Positions 4,875 to 57,497 of a DNA stretch of 57,497 nt are shown here, one piece after another; position 1 is the first letter of the stretch, and every line of letters begins with the position of its first letter. This DNA is from Erysipelotrichaceae bacterium (GTDB lineage Bacteria; Bacillota_I; Bacilli_A; Erysipelotrichales; Erysipelotrichaceae): positions 1-57,497 of the forward strand of contig WSYG01000011.1 of assembly GCA_009773735.1 (NCBI GenBank), in the 5' to 3' direction. Made by a program: the position numbers and the translations under genes. A model generated the notes under the pieces. It was not told where the DNA came from, did not search any database, and saw nothing but the letters and a program-made list of their open reading frames with translations.

Positions 4875-5690
4875 TTATTTTTCTAGAACCAACTCGTCTA
4901 AAATCGTCATGGTTTGATCATCAATGACAAAATCAAGATCGGCATTTTCGATCATGCGTTGTTCATGAGTCGTTTTTGGTAAAGGTACAGTTCCTTTTTG
5001 GACGCAATACCGAATGGCCAATCTCGCAATACTTACACCAAGTTCTTTGGCGATCTGTTCTAATTTTGCATTTTTGAATAAACGACCGGTCGCTAAAGGT
5101 GAATAAGCTTCAATCTGAATCTGTAAAGGTTCGCAGAAAGCCACGGTTTCTTTTTGTGTATGTCCAATCCAATAGGAGATCTGATTCACATGAGGAACCA
5201 CTTCACAGGCATCTAATAATGCTTGAATGTCTTTAGGTGAGAAGTTAGAAACACCAATTGAGCGAATCTTACTGTCTCGATAAAGTTTTTCAAAAGCTTT
5301 CCAAGAATCGATGTTGCCTTGTGTACAATCCTTTCCCATTTCATTCCAAGGCCATGGGGCATGAATCAAATATAGATCCAAATAATCGACCCCTAGGTTG
5401 GTGATGGTCTTATCAAATTCAACCAAGGCTTCTTCATAGCCTTTGATCTGTGCTTTTAGTTTGCTGGTGATGAAGATTTCTGATCTAGGAATCCCAGAAT
5501 CTTTGATGGCTTTCCCAACAGCTTCTTCATTTCCATAAGCAGCAGCTGTGTCAATATGTCGATAACCATTCTTAAGAGCTAAAGTAACGGCTTCGTAAGC
5601 TTCTTCATTCGGAATCTGCCAAGTTCCAAAACCTAAGGTTGGGATCTTGACTCCATTGGCTAGTGTTTTAACGTCGTTTAAAGTTTTCAT
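4875..5690 (-). CDS. Aldo/keto reductase
   Basis: 271 residues, the typical length for the 2,5-diketo-gluconate/glyoxal reductase branch. The family signature HIDTAAAYGNEEAVG carries the active-site Asp and Tyr. The catalytic Lys lies in FITSKLKA, the catalytic His in LIHAPWP, and the NADPH-binding PLPKTTHEQRM is near the C-terminus. It reduces small carbonyls with NADPH in the cytoplasm. It is the first gene of a two-gene unit with the SGNH hydrolase. A perfect TCGCAAAA/TTTTGCGA inverted repeat lies just upstream. Confidence 0.92.
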   Translation of the reverse strand: MKTLNDVKTLANGVKIPTLGFGTWQIPNEEAYEAVTLALKNGYRHIDTAAAYGNEEAVGKAIKDSGIPRSEIFITSKLKAQIKGYEEALVEFDKTITNLGVDYLDLYLIHAPWPWNEMGKDCTQGNIDSWKAFEKLYRDSKIRSIGVSNFSPKDIQALLDACEVVPHVNQISYWIGHTQKETVAFCEPLQIQIEAYSPLATGRLFKNAKLEQIAKELGVSIARLAIRYCVQKGTVPLPKTTHEQRMIENADLDFVIDDQTMTILDELVLEK

Positions 5691-5851: not shown

Positions 5852-7039
5852 CTATCCTTCTAAGAATTCTTTTCTTACCTGCTTAAAGGCTTCCACGGCC
5901 TTTAATAGTTGATCTTGAGTATGCGCAGCACTGACCATAACTCTTAAGCGTGCTTTACCTTTAGGAACAGTAGGGAATACGATCGGGGAAACATAAACAC
6001 CCAATTCATATAGACGCTTTGATGTTTTTACAGTCAGAGCTTCATCAAACAACATGACAGGTGTAATCGGAGATTCACTATGCCCAATATCAAATCCAGC
6101 TTGTGTCATATGCGCCTTAAAGAAGGCACTGTTGGCCCATAAAGTCTTGGTATACTCATCGCTTTCAGACATCATCTTTACACCTTCTATGAGTGCTCCA
6201 ATGACGGCAGGAGGAAGATTGGTTGAGAAAAGTAAAGGTCTAGCTCGTAAGGAGAGCCATTCTTTCATGACTTTTTTACCAGCCACATAACCACCCATTG
6301 CCCCAAAAGCTTTGGACAAAGTTCCGATCGTAAAATCGATCCGTCCATGAAGATGAAAATGATCGACTGTGCCTCTTCCGTTTTCACCCAAGACCCCTGA
6401 TCCATGCGCATCATCGACATAAGTCAAACATTGATAGGCTTCAGCCAAGTCAACGATTTCAGGTAACTTCGCTAAATCACCATCCATGGAGAATACCCCA
6501 TCAGTAATGATCAGGACATTTTGATAATGAGACCTTTTTTCAACCAAGATCCGTTTAAGGTCTTCCATATCACTATGTTTAAAAACAGCTCTATCAGCTT
6601 TTGATAATTTGACCCCATCGATGATGGAGGCATGATTGAGTTCATCTGAGATGATCAAATCTCCTGCGTCGGTTATGGCTTGTATGACTCCCGCATTACA
6701 GTTGAATCCCGATTGAAAGACAAGGACCGCTTCTTCTTTCTTAAAGATTGCCAAAGCTTTTTCAAGCTCTTCATGCAAAGACATATTGCCTAAAATGGTC
6801 TTAACAGCACCTGCTCCGATCCCATACTGTTCAACGGCTTGGATGGCTGCTTTTTTTAAACGCGGATGATTCGCAAAACCCAGATAATTATTAGAGGTCA
6901 GGTTGATGACTTCATGGCCATTGACGATGACCAATGCTTCATTGGCACTTTCTAGAATCGGTAAGACTCTAAATACACCATCTGCTTTCAATTGATCGAC
7001 TTTCTTTTTTAAGAAATCAAGTTCATGAATTTGACTCAT
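5852..7039 (-). CDS. kbl: Glycine C-acetyltransferase (2-amino-3-ketobutyrate CoA ligase)
   Basis: 395 residues, a PLP-dependent alpha-oxoamine synthase. It cleaves 2-amino-3-oxobutyrate with CoA to glycine and acetyl-CoA. Visible signatures are [16 protein letters not shown] near the N-terminus, [16 protein letters not shown], and the PLP lysine in [13 protein letters not shown]. The start codon overlaps the upstream tdh stop by 4 bp, so the two enzymes of threonine degradation are translationally coupled. This pairing separates it from the homologous AONS/BioF enzymes. Confidence 0.96.
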
Positions 7040-53157: not shown

Positions 53158-53233
53158 GCCGACATAGCTCAACTGGTAGAGCAACTGAATCGTAATCAGT
53201 AGGTTGCGGGTTCAAGTCCTGTTGTCGGCACCA
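53158..53233 (+). tRNA. tRNA-Thr(CGT)
   Basis: 76 nt with encoded CCA. The acceptor GCCGACA pairs TGTCGGC. Anticodon stem ACTGA/TCAGT, anticodon CGT at 53191-53193. It decodes ACG. Its last 17 nt are the left copy of the duplicated sequence that flanks the accessory element. Confidence 0.96.
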
Positions 53234-53309
53234 TTTCACTCTAGGCCCTTATTCTATAAGGGTTTTTTGCAGGTCAGAAGTGCCAGGTGTAACAAAAGTG
53301 TAACGTTTT
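53217..53309 (+). repeat. Direct repeat DR1: tRNA-Thr 3' end plus flank (attachment-site-like)
   Basis: 93 bp covering the final 17 nt of tRNA-Thr, its terminator (CCCTTAT-TCT-ATAAGGG-TTTTTT, 53246-53268) and a pair of GTGTAAC motifs (53287-53293, 53298-53304). It is repeated at 56245-56337 with one mismatch (G versus A). Weaker similarity continues for about 130 bp more in both places. Confidence 0.9.
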
Positions 53310-53329
53310 TATAAAAAACGATTAAAAAG

Positions 53330-53385
53330 AGAACGAAAAACACGCATAGTAGGTAGACTATTTGATGAAGAAAAGGGATAATGAG
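53330..53385 (+). pseudogene. Remnant of a gene 3' end (copy 1)
   Basis: Reads in frame as ...RIVGRLFDEEKG-stop (TAA at 53380-53382) and closely matches the C-terminus of the intact gene ending at 54116 (RRVGRLSDEEKG). No upstream coding part remains. The stop overlaps an ATG (TAATG) that opens a 13-codon reading frame. Confidence 0.6.
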
Positions 53386-53438
53386 GTTAACAAGATTAAA
53401 GAGTAATACTGGTTTGGAATAAAGTAGGGGGGCAGGCC

Positions 53439-54116
53439 ATGAGCATGTTTAGAAACATATACAAATCAGTAGGCAATCAGATTTATGTTGAGTCATTGAA
53501 TCCTATGCCAGGGTATAAATGGAGAGCCAGAATCACCAATGCTTTTCTATGGGATATTAACACCTTTTTCAAACAGAGAGGTGAACTACTAGAATACTAT
53601 TGCCTCACGTTCCATAGTATTGATGACCAGCCATATCATAAGATCCCATGTCGAACACTCATGGTGCCCAGAACGATGTATTTTAGTTTTGTCGATAAAA
53701 TGTTCACCGATCGCGTCGAATTCAGTGATGAGCAGCTCGAGCACGAGTATGCTTGTTGGGTTGACTATGATGGCGAGACTCCATTTGAACTCTACCTTGA
53801 AGTTTCTGCGGTCGAAACGATAACGAATCTAAACTACATAGTCATTGATTATGCTGTTTCAGCCAAAGATGCCATCGATAAAAGTTTAGGAAAGTGCCGT
53901 TCAACAAAGCAACTGAAGAAACTTTTGCAGAAAGGTTTTTGTGCAAATGTTCAAATTCACGATTCTGAATATATGTTAATCACTATCAATAATGAGTCTT
54001 GGATTGACGAAGTTATGGAGATTGTAAAGAAGCACTGTGAATTAGACTGCAATGGTTATATTAGAGTACCCAAAAAACGCAGAGTAGGTAGACTATCGGA
54101 TGAAGAGAAGGGATAA
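53439..54116 (+). CDS. Unrecognised accessory protein, first cargo gene
   Basis: 225 residues, with TAGGGGGGC 6-14 bp upstream. Probably soluble: no signal peptide or membrane helix. Acidic/aromatic N-terminal two thirds (YYCLTFHSIDDQPYHKIPC), then DYAVSAKDAIDKSLGKCRSTKQLKKLLQKG and a basic C-terminus KKRRVGRLSDEEKG. I know no family. Its last codons match two non-coding remnants elsewhere in the region (53330-53385 and 56365-56412). The TAATG end offers coupling to the membrane-protein gene downstream. Confidence 0.7.
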   Translation: MSMFRNIYKSVGNQIYVESLNPMPGYKWRARITNAFLWDINTFFKQRGELLEYYCLTFHSIDDQPYHKIPCRTLMVPRTMYFSFVDKMFTDRVEFSDEQLEHEYACWVDYDGETPFELYLEVSAVETITNLNYIVIDYAVSAKDAIDKSLGKCRSTKQLKKLLQKGFCANVQIHDSEYMLITINNESWIDEVMEIVKKHCELDCNGYIRVPKKRRVGRLSDEEKG

Positions 54117-54142
54117 TGAGAATAGTAAATTGGGGAAAAACA

Positions 54143-54475
54143 ATGAAAACGACACCGAAGTTTAGTAGGTCATTCAAAGATATAGCCATTGCGTTACCTA
54201 TTTGTGAGTTACTACTTCTATGTGCGCTAGCTATGATTAAAATGAGTATTGTTAAGAATGAATTTGCATATGGGCACTCATTAAGCCAAGCATATTTTCT
54301 ATATATGTTAATCATGTCTGGAATAATAATGACAACAATTCTGCCTTATCTTGATTATAGAAACCTTATAAAGAAAGAATTGACTACACCAACAATATGG
54401 AAAAGAAACTATATCTTAAGTCTAGTCATCCTGACTCTAGTAGTTTCTTTATTTATTACCCTATATGTCCAATAA
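54143..54475 (+). CDS. Unrecognised small membrane protein
   Basis: 110 residues from the ATG at 54143, spaced 7 bp from TTGGGG. An alternative start at 54116, overlapping the previous stop, would add nine residues. Three hydrophobic segments are seen (IAIALPICELLLLCALAMI; YFLYMLIMSGIIMTTIL; YILSLVILTLVVSLFITLYV). Function unknown. The coupling to the preceding gene suggests a two-gene unit. A terminator-like hairpin follows at 54511-54538. Confidence 0.65.
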   Translation: MKTTPKFSRSFKDIAIALPICELLLLCALAMIKMSIVKNEFAYGHSLSQAYFLYMLIMSGIIMTTILPYLDYRNLIKKELTTPTIWKRNYILSLVILTLVVSLFITLYVQ

Positions 54476-54538: not shown

Positions 54539-54593
54539 ATGATTAGTTTAAGGCAGCCATCATAGGGTTAGTTGTTACTTGGAACTCTGACTA

Positions 54594-54689
54594 AGACCAC
54601 GGTCTTGGCAACCACACCGTGGCACACGATTGGGTGTGCCTAAGCGTTCATACTAGAATGTGGTGAATGCTCCACCTGGAGCGAATACG
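54594..54689 (+). repeat. Hairpin-rich 95-nt repeat element, copy A
   Basis: Begins AGACCACGGTCTTGG and ends CTGGAGCGAATACG. It contains local stems CCACGGT (54597-54603) with CACCGTGG, CACAC with GTGTG, and GCTCCA-CC-TGGAGC. Copies B and C lie at 55388 and 57403. Only copy A is followed by AGACCGTGGT (54690-54699), the reverse complement of its own start, giving two competing pairings. It sits 39 bp before the next gene. Confidence 0.8.
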
Positions 54690-54728
54690 AAGACCGTGGT
54701 GCGTTCTAACTAATGGAAAGGGGATAAA

Positions 54729-55358
54729 ATGAAAAAGCCAATAAAAATTCTGTTGATCGTACTTGCCTCAGCTATTGGATTAACGATAGTTCTAGGTCTC
54801 AGTTTAAATGTTTTTTCAAGACAAATTGGAGACTTTTATTTATCTAGGAGTAATTATAACGAAGCGGTTATATGGTATGAACGAGAATATGATTTTTACC
54901 ATTCTGATAACAGTTTGGTAACCCTCATAAAATCTCTGCTTAAGGTTGAAGGTCAATATAAAGAAAAAGCAAAATACTATTCTTTAGCAATAGAAAACAA
55001 ACCAACCAACATGACAGAACAAGACTATGAGATTTTCTATATTGAATACCTTTTTGCACTTTATCAATTAGATCAAATTTCCGAATTTAAAGAAGCATTT
55101 GAGATGCGATATAAATTACTCATAGCCTCTTCAGATTACTTAAGTATACTAGCTCCTTTTACTTTGATCCAACAAGATAGCGAAGCAACCACTGAAGTTT
55201 TGACCTGGAGTATAGAGATGATTGAGAAAATCATCACAGAATATGATTATGATGATATTAAACGATTTGGCTACAAATTCGAATCCTTGTTTTATAAACG
55301 TTTAGGGGATCTGGTTAAAGCAACGGAATATGAGGAAAAATCGAATCAGTACAAGTAA
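54729..55358 (+). CDS. Membrane-anchored TPR-like protein, unrecognised
   Basis: 209 residues after a GGAAAGGGG site. An N-terminal transmembrane anchor (ILLIVLASAIGLTIVLGLSL) is followed by helical repeats resembling TPRs (RSNYNEAVIWYEREYDFY; YKEKAKYYSLAIENKPTN; RLGDLVKATEYEEKSNQY). The repeats should lie outside the membrane. The protein could be a protein-protein adaptor, but no family is recognised. It is flanked on both sides by copies of the 95-nt repeat, like a cassette. Confidence 0.7.
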   Translation: MKKPIKILLIVLASAIGLTIVLGLSLNVFSRQIGDFYLSRSNYNEAVIWYEREYDFYHSDNSLVTLIKSLLKVEGQYKEKAKYYSLAIENKPTNMTEQDYEIFYIEYLFALYQLDQISEFKEAFEMRYKLLIASSDYLSILAPFTLIQQDSEATTEVLTWSIEMIEKIITEYDYDDIKRFGYKFESLFYKRLGDLVKATEYEEKSNQYK

Positions 55359-55387
55359 ACAGAAATACTGATTTTAGATAGCGATGC

Positions 55388-55473
55388 AGACCACGGTCTT
55401 GGTAAACTCACCGTGGGACACGATTGGGTGTTTATACTTGAATGTGGTGAATGCTCCACCTGGAGCGAATACG
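55388..55473 (+). repeat. Hairpin-rich repeat element, copy B
   Basis: Same start and end as copy A, with a deletion of about 10 nt after GATTGGGTGT. The terminal GCTCCA-CC-TGGAGC hairpin and the CCACGGT/ACCGTGG hairpin are intact. It lies between the TPR-like gene and the next cargo gene. Confidence 0.8.
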
Positions 55474-55573
55474 CAGACAATATTAAACAAGAACTTTTAG
55501 GCACTGAAATCAATATGATACAATAAAGAAATCTATTATTAAAATGAAGAATGATCCAACGAGGTGGGGAACA

Positions 55574-56017
55574 ATGATTAAGAAAATAATTATTTGTGGA
55601 GTACTTCTCATTATGTTTTGTTTCATTGGATATAATAGTGTATCAACAGGGTTTGTTAATCTTGATTATTTAGGTCAAGGAAAGCTTCAATCGGTTACCG
55701 TAGACGGTCGAGGGTGTATTACTTCGTTTTGTGAAGGTACATCTCCTTGGGTTATTACTGTGAACAATCCAAAACAACTAAAAGGGTTAGAGTCTGCATT
55801 TTTTAATAAAATTCAAGATATTTTTCATCACACAAAAGAAGATGGTTCACTCAGTTTCATTTTTCATTATGAACATAAAGACATAGAATTTCACGCTAGT
55901 TTATCTTGTGATCTATCAGGTGGCCGTATATATTATACCGATCGTCAAATCTCCTATCTTTTCAACAAGAGCGAGATGAATATATTCAGTGAGATATTTA
56001 CATTAGTGTGTCCTTAA
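55574..56017 (+). CDS. Unrecognised protein with N-terminal membrane anchor
   Basis: 147 residues from the ATG at 55574, preceded by GAGGTGGGG. An in-frame ATG at 55544 lacks a ribosome site. A hydrophobic N-terminus (IIICGVLLIMFCFIGY) acts as anchor or signal. The rest is beta-rich with four Cys (GRGCITSFCEGTSPW; SLSCDLSGGRIYYTD), suggesting an extracytoplasmic domain. No family recognised. It is a single-gene cassette between repeat copy B and the right end of the 3-kb element. Confidence 0.65.
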   Translation: MIKKIIICGVLLIMFCFIGYNSVSTGFVNLDYLGQGKLQSVTVDGRGCITSFCEGTSPWVITVNNPKQLKGLESAFFNKIQDIFHHTKEDGSLSFIFHYEHKDIEFHASLSCDLSGGRIYYTDRQISYLFNKSEMNIFSEIFTLVCP

Positions 56018-56244
56018 TCATCTGTAGATATTTTGGAATTGATCGACTTTTGTAGAATCAAAATGTCATTGTTTATGAGTTCAAATTTGAATTCTATTCC
56101 AAGATCCTAGGTGTAACATAAGTGTAACGTTTTCCGAGAAAACATCTATTTTTTATCGATCTTTATTTAAACGATTTATCAAAATAGCCTTATTTTATAT
56201 ACGTTTTATCATTTTCGATAACGAAAAATACGCATAGTTTAGAA
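56018..56244. other. Right end of the 3-kb element, no gene
   Basis: No gene. Contains a second pair of GTGTAAC motifs (56111-56117, 56122-56128) in the setting AGGTGTAACATAAGTGTAAC. Further on, ACGAAAAATACGCATAG (56221-56237) matches the segment after the same motif at the left end. These look like subterminal sites repeated at both ends. Confidence 0.6.
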
Positions 56245-56337
56245 TCCTGTTGTCGGCACCATTTCACTCTAGGCCCTTATTCTATAAGGGTTTTTTGCAG
56301 GTCAAAAGTGCCAGGTGTAACAAAAGTGTAACGTTTT
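56245..56337 (+). repeat. Direct repeat DR2: second copy of tRNA-Thr 3' end and flank
   Basis: Matches DR1 at 92 of 93 positions, offset 3,028 bp. It includes the 17-nt tRNA tail, the terminator and both GTGTAAC motifs, but no tRNA 5' part. Similarity with DR1's downstream flank continues, at a lower level, to about 56475. Confidence 0.9.
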
Positions 56338-56364
56338 AAAAGAAAACGATAAAAAAGAAGACAA

Positions 56365-56412
56365 AATAAACGCAGAGTTGATAGATTTTTAAGAGAAGAA
56401 AAGGGATAATGG
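56365..56412 (+). pseudogene. Remnant of a gene 3' end (copy 2)
   Basis: Reads as RRVDRFLREEKG-stop, parallel to the C-terminus of the 53439-54116 gene and to the remnant at 53330. Downstream, the position matching that gene's start codon reads GCAGACCATA, so the ATG is lost and an unrelated gene now follows. Confidence 0.55.
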
Positions 56413-56496
56413 GAGTAATATGATTAAAGAGATAATACTGATTTGGAACAATGTAGGGAGCAGACCATAACCCTGGATAAAGGAGAATAACAATTA

Positions 56497-57327
56497 ATGA
56501 GAACTTTTATTCGTAGAGTAATTGAACCACCTGGACCGAGAAAATTGTTGCCGGAAAAAGTACTCGCTGATGCCAAAGAAATCTATGCCAAAATGGGGAA
56601 ATATGCGGTAGAAGAATCGATGTTGCTCGTTCGAGTACCTATCGATTCTGCGGAATATCAAATGATACTCGATTATGAGGCGAAGTACCAGGAATATTTC
56701 CCTAAAAAGAAACGCCATTATATTCTAGAAAAGGAATTCACTCTACAGGAACTTAATGAAGCCGAATACTTAATCTTGTTTGTAGGGAACCTTACATACC
56801 CTGTTTATGATGGAAGATTTGAGTTTTGTTGTGACAAGAAGTGCTATTCCCACAGTTTTAGATACAGAGTACCTTATAGAATCGAAAGCAAAAGTCTTGG
56901 AAATAAACATTTAGGAAATATGACAGATGACGGTTATGTTGTTTCTATAGCGTTGAAGAATGAACTTGAGAAACATAACTTAACAAACCTAGTTTTTATT
57001 CCGGCGCTTAAAGGAAGAGGTGATGAGATCGTAGGATATCGTTTAGAGACCAAACATCTTCTTCCACCACTTGAGTATTTCGATCAGTCAAAGATACTAA
57101 TGAGGTGTCAAACGACGGGGATACCTGTCTATACTAATGAGATTGAAGATTTGCTTGAAATCAAACGTTCCGTCGCACTTGCCATGGATGACTTCAACGC
57201 AACCTATGAACTGATGACGAGCACTGGGATAAGATTTTACATAATAAGTCAGCGAATGTACCGAATCATAAAACAGTTCACGATCAGAAGTTTCGAGTGT
57301 GAACCTATCAAGATAATCCCTGATTAA
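56497..57327 (+). CDS. Unrecognised accessory protein, cargo of the second unit
   Basis: 276 residues. AAAGGAG lies 11 bp before the ATG, slightly far. Probably soluble: no signal or membrane helix. Basic N-terminus (MRTFIRRVIEPPGPRK), a Tyr/Glu-rich region, then a beta-rich middle with paired cysteines (FEFCCDKKCYSHSFRYRVPY) and a helical C-terminal part. No family is recognised and it does not resemble the first cargo protein, although both sit at the same distance from a DR copy. Confidence 0.7.
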   Translation: MRTFIRRVIEPPGPRKLLPEKVLADAKEIYAKMGKYAVEESMLLVRVPIDSAEYQMILDYEAKYQEYFPKKKRHYILEKEFTLQELNEAEYLILFVGNLTYPVYDGRFEFCCDKKCYSHSFRYRVPYRIESKSLGNKHLGNMTDDGYVVSIALKNELEKHNLTNLVFIPALKGRGDEIVGYRLETKHLLPPLEYFDQSKILMRCQTTGIPVYTNEIEDLLEIKRSVALAMDDFNATYELMTSTGIRFYIISQRMYRIIKQFTIRSFECEPIKIIPD

Positions 57328-57402
57328 CTGATGCATAACAATATGTAATAGGTCGGCCTTTGGTGAGTAACAATGCTATATATGTCTGATGAAAGATAAC
57401 TC

Positions 57403-57497
57403 AGACCACGGTCTTGGCAAACTCACCGTGGGACACGATTGGGTGTGCCTAAGCGTTCATACTAGAATGTGGGGAATGCTCCACCTGGAGCGAATAC
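57403..57497 (+). repeat. Hairpin-rich repeat element, copy C (runs to the window end)
   Basis: Nearly identical to copy A across its length, with CAAACTC in the first loop as in copy B (with one T/C difference). It follows the 56497-57327 gene after 75 bp. The window ends inside or at the edge of the element. Confidence 0.8.

Follow-up and report, generated by a model that had tools for sequence, protein, structure and literature searches.

The element in the window

Is the hairpin-rich repeat between small genes at one end of an Erysipelotrichaceae contig a joint of gene cassettes, a mobile repeat or a structured RNA? The window that we analysed is the whole stretch of 57,497 nt, which is the entire contig C72 of a 1.94-Mb draft genome. 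As originally predicted, it holds three copies of the element, all on the plus strand and at the predicted positions. Genome search and folding delimit copy 1 as complete (54586–54711, core 54596–54700); copy 2 (55380–55480) is decayed, with an 11-nt internal deletion and its right end gone; and copy 3 (57395–57497) breaks off where the contig ends. The three short inverted repeats described for them (CCACGGT/ACCGTGG, ACAC/GTGT and GCTCCA/TGGAGC) were confirmed. The length of 95 nt given for the element was, however, too short, because copy 3 is cut off at 57497: the full element is ~107–125 nt long, and the shorter version misses the right arm AAGACCGTGGT (54690–54700, plus strand). This arm pairs with the left arm ACCACGGTCTT (54596–54606, plus strand) in an outer stem that closes the whole of copy 1, which folds with −50.1 kcal/mol (z −5.5), and it lies within the best-conserved part of the element, the 19-nt right end GAATACGAAGACCGTGGTG (54683–54701, plus strand). 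The copies had also been called almost identical, which is true of copies 1 and 3 (95–96% identity; in the whole-genome search copy 1 finds copy 3 with E 9e-39, far above chance) but not of copy 2, which is 83% identical to copy 1 and lacks 11 nt from its middle.

Three is the count for the window only; the whole-genome search found 9 clear copies on five contigs of the source genome. Beyond the source genome, copies were present in two sister species (five full copies and two fragments in G001; two full copies and one fragment in G002) and in another genus of the same family (G289; two diverged copies). In a model search of the family (273 genomes) and of the order (316), G289 was the only genome beyond the genus to carry the element, and the element was absent from plasmid and phage collections. 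Copies are about as divergent within a genome (83.5% identity) as between species (83.2%), as would be expected of an old shared cassette pool.

Some weaker candidates were rejected. The 19-nt right end turned up in eight viral contigs as chance matches in coding sequence, two of the sequences recurring in overlapping contigs; matches to a 26-nt pattern in Planktomarina, Acidobacteria, Fontibacillus and Gordonia had no full-length model match; and a weak third copy in G289, on C263 (E 0.02), was unconvincing by eye.

Position and direction relative to genes

All 18 full or near-full copies (16 from the genus and 2 from G289) lie 3′ of a gene and in the same direction as that gene, as do all four fragments, the genes being mechanical ORF calls. 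The copies and fragments are spread over ten separate loci, so we gave each locus one vote; the pattern then has a probability of ~0.001 by chance, with random orientation assumed. The element begins ~20–220 nt after the stop codon and is followed by the next start at ~24–276 nt. The genes ahead of the elements are mostly small orphans, and a few array genes have weak immunity-, HEAT-, DUF2691- or kinase-like matches.

The window illustrates this layout, with all ORFs named here on the plus strand. The first gene after the tRNA-Thr gene at the start of the array encodes 225 aa with no family match (53439–54116) and is followed by an ORF of 119 aa with no family match at cut-off (54116–54475) and then by copy 1. 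A single ORF of 209 aa, with no family match (54729–55358), stands between copies 1 and 2, giving one gene plus element, as in a cassette. Farther along are an ORF of 157 aa with no family match at cut-off (55544–56017) and one of 276 aa with sub-threshold likeness to Imm11 (56497–57327), behind which lies copy 3.

We tentatively propose, at slightly less than an even chance, that the repeat is the 3′-terminal recombination site of small gene cassettes, laid out like integron attC. The unit would be one gene, sometimes two, with the element behind it, and the units would be joined head to tail. What we observed in favour of this reading is the position of the element, its direction, its recurrence behind unrelated genes and the three homology comparisons given below.

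The main rival, which we judge rather unlikely, is a mobile repeat of the MITE or ERIC kind, non-autonomous, which would insert 3′ of genes in one fixed orientation without carrying the gene with it. As far as the available accounts of MITEs and of ERIC and RU repeats go, the element resembles them in its length (~100–130 nt), intergenic site, terminal-like inverted repeats, non-coding nature and multiple copies; decayed copies, and copies in unrelated accessory regions (C14, C27 and C54), would also fit. However, a strict sense direction behind genes is unusual for MITEs, no target-site duplication was seen at the edges when the flanks were inspected by eye (the left edge is fuzzy), and at locus L147 of G289 a gene has been duplicated along with the element. 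A search for empty sites with the flanks of the C14, C54 and C27 copies found none, as the genes on either side belong to the accessory set or have diverged too far. Truncation is obvious in several copies.

Homology comparisons

The proposed cassette unit is based on only three homologous comparisons, in all of which the element accompanies the gene that precedes it. At L147 (contig C217), a unit of ~470 nt, made up of a small ORF, a terminator and the element, occurs twice, 3.7 kb apart (2477–2947 and 6163–6630). The two units are 83–86% identical over most of their length, and their similarity stops where the element has its right end, at GTGGTGTG; on its left side, the unit is not directly adjoined by a further element. 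In both units the terminator lies between gene and element, which favours a role of the element at the DNA level.

The second comparison concerns a 342-aa gene common to G001 and G002 (98.5% protein identity). The elements that precede it are just 80% identical between the two species and the genes before those differ; identity becomes high from the right end of the preceding element onward. Here, as at L147, the break in homology coincides with the element's right end. The third comparison is the 276-aa ORF of the window, which recurs with the element behind it at another tRNA-Thr gene in G001 (84% aa identity). Gene and element are each ~89% identical in DNA and their neighbourhoods differ. 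This comparison is weaker than the other two: the element runs into the end of the window contig, and copy 3 has even closer relatives among the copies of its own genome. With the element always sense and 3′ of a gene, and with homology stopping at its right edge, the earlier description of the copies as joints of a cassette array is the best supported of the original ideas.

Among the genes beside the diverged elements of L147 are those of a UvrD-type helicase, with scores in the GajB/DRT helicase models, and of a protein with metallo-beta-lactamase fold.

Conservation and folding

The original prediction also suggested a structured RNA, which could act at the 3′ ends or between the genes of a transcript in a regulatory, stabilising or processing role. 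The element is indeed always sense relative to the gene, several copies fold strongly, and the outer stem is 91% paired, with one compensatory change when G289 is added (T-A to C-G, GGTCTT/AAGACC becoming GGTCTC/GAGACC). Among the 16 genus copies, however, compensatory changes were found in 0 of 21 pairs, where shuffles give 1.1, and the single pair found against the other genus is likewise no more than shuffles give. Folding energy is uneven between copies (z −0.2 to −5.3; mean z about −2.6 as RNA and −2.3/−1.8 as DNA), and both strands fold about equally as RNA. The element matched none of the curated covariance models of Rfam even at E 5, and the earlier statement that it belongs to no known class holds in that respect. 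Given also that the terminators of L147 precede the element, we regard a structured RNA as improbable.

Conservation is instead concentrated at one end. The last 19–21 nt are 90% identical between genera, compared with ~37–65% for most of the remaining element, and the 19-nt right end is the sole part well conserved between genera. Together with the near absence of covariation, this points to a right end that may be recognised by its sequence, rather than to a whole element kept as an RNA fold.

Comparison with integron attC sites

Integrons are well known in Proteobacteria. In Firmicutes, integrons and CALIN, the cassette arrays that have no integrase, are rare, one complete integron and a few CALIN having been reported (PMC9024848). 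Their attC sites are defined by a GTTRRRY core and a RYYYAAC inverse core and are 57–141 bp long (PMC3053210), a range that includes the length of our element. An attC site also forms a conserved hairpin with extrahelical bases on one side; in our element the outer stem is largely paired, but folding varies from copy to copy. Like attC, the element is an imperfect inverted repeat behind a gene and in the same direction, with one or two genes per unit as in integron cassettes, and its right end is both the best-conserved part and the boundary of homology. Unlike attC, no copy has the pair of core boxes: RYYYAAC was found in 0 of 16 copies and GTTRRRY in only 2 of 16, anywhere in the element, the right end of which reads GTTCTAA-like; nor does covariation support its fold. 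No integron integrase was present among the PF00589 matches of G000, G001 and G002, which their sequences sort into XerC/XerD types and phage-type recombinases; the G001 integrase at tRNA-Thr scored 32 bits with TIGR02249, the cut-off being 265. The layout fits attC, whereas the core boxes and recombinases do not, and the element may therefore function in an attC-like way but, by its core boxes, is not an attC.

If the element does work as a cassette site, then, by analogy with integrons, one of its strands would fold and a putative recombinase would recognise the folded strand. Strand exchange would then take place at the right end, probably near the junction of GTGGTGnG and TT. Several observations stand against the cassette reading: no integron-type recombinase, no attC core boxes, uneven folding, near-absent covariation, the left edge of the L147 unit, no empty site found and truncated copies. 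The many decayed copies suggest that the arrays may be largely inactive today.

A broader possibility, which we think unlikely, though less so than a structured RNA, is a gene-capture system in Bacillota that parallels integrons, with cassettes of one gene plus a hairpin site of a new sequence class and a recombinase other than IntI. In Firmicutes, a cassette-type array with a different joint sequence would imply either repeated origins of gene capture by folded sites or a greater variety of integron-like sites than present models allow for. Such an array would also mark a place where uncharacterised small accessory genes, perhaps of immunity or defence, are collected.

The tRNA-Thr surroundings

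The array of the window starts at tRNA-Thr(CGT) (53158–53233, plus strand). Of the two G001 arrays, one has tRNA-Thr(GGT) at its start and the other lies beyond an island at tRNA-Thr(CGT); these two tRNA-Thr isoacceptors appear to serve as island sites. Within the window, a 187-nt segment (56245–56431, plus strand) is a duplicate, at 87% identity, of 53217–53403 and contains the tRNA-Thr 3′ end, a terminator, GTGTAACaaaaGTGTAACG direct repeats and a gene leader. The arrays in this way resemble islands targeted to tRNA genes by a tyrosine integrase: two of them begin at tRNA-Thr, tRNA 3′ ends are repeated, and in one sister species tRNA-Thr(CGT) has a phage-type integrase as its neighbour. Unlike the att sites of such islands, the element is not a tRNA end, and it is also found away from tRNA-Thr loci.

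These surroundings could suggest that the element is a passive relic, functionless in itself and spread by homologous recombination and duplication within tRNA-Thr islands. Two arrays begin at tRNA-Thr and contain both recurring tRNA 3′ ends and a second family of repeats, which would be consistent with this, as would the common occurrence of decayed copies. We nevertheless consider it very unlikely: the flanks cannot be aligned between most copies, yet the element is ~83% identical; the right end has been kept between genera; and copies also occur outside the tRNA arrays.

The G001 island adjoining tRNA-Thr(CGT) (L118:642–4008, on C14) encodes a phage-type integrase and ThsB-type TIR, SLATT and Bro-N proteins. 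In G002, an Rhs-repeat protein (C112, L026:13–1950) lies a few kb ahead of an array of small orphans. Fragments of tRNA-Thr 3′ ends were seen inside the arrays at 56245 in the window and at L025:10276, L024:8539, L026:3059 and 6707, and L010:4810, most of them with a terminator.

The second family of intergenic repeats precedes the array genes, in the window at 53247–53440, 54063–54128 and 56275–56463, and occurs also in L010, L024, L025, L026 and L027. It ends in AAGGGATAATG, which resembles a ribosome-binding site, and most of its copies contain the direct repeats GTGTAACaaaaGTGTAACG at 11-bp spacing, similar to an operator of the OmpR/PhoP type. The source genome has further families of intergenic repeats, at L011:2331–2480 and 5209–5375 (C54) and also on C8, which are 86–92% identical between contigs.
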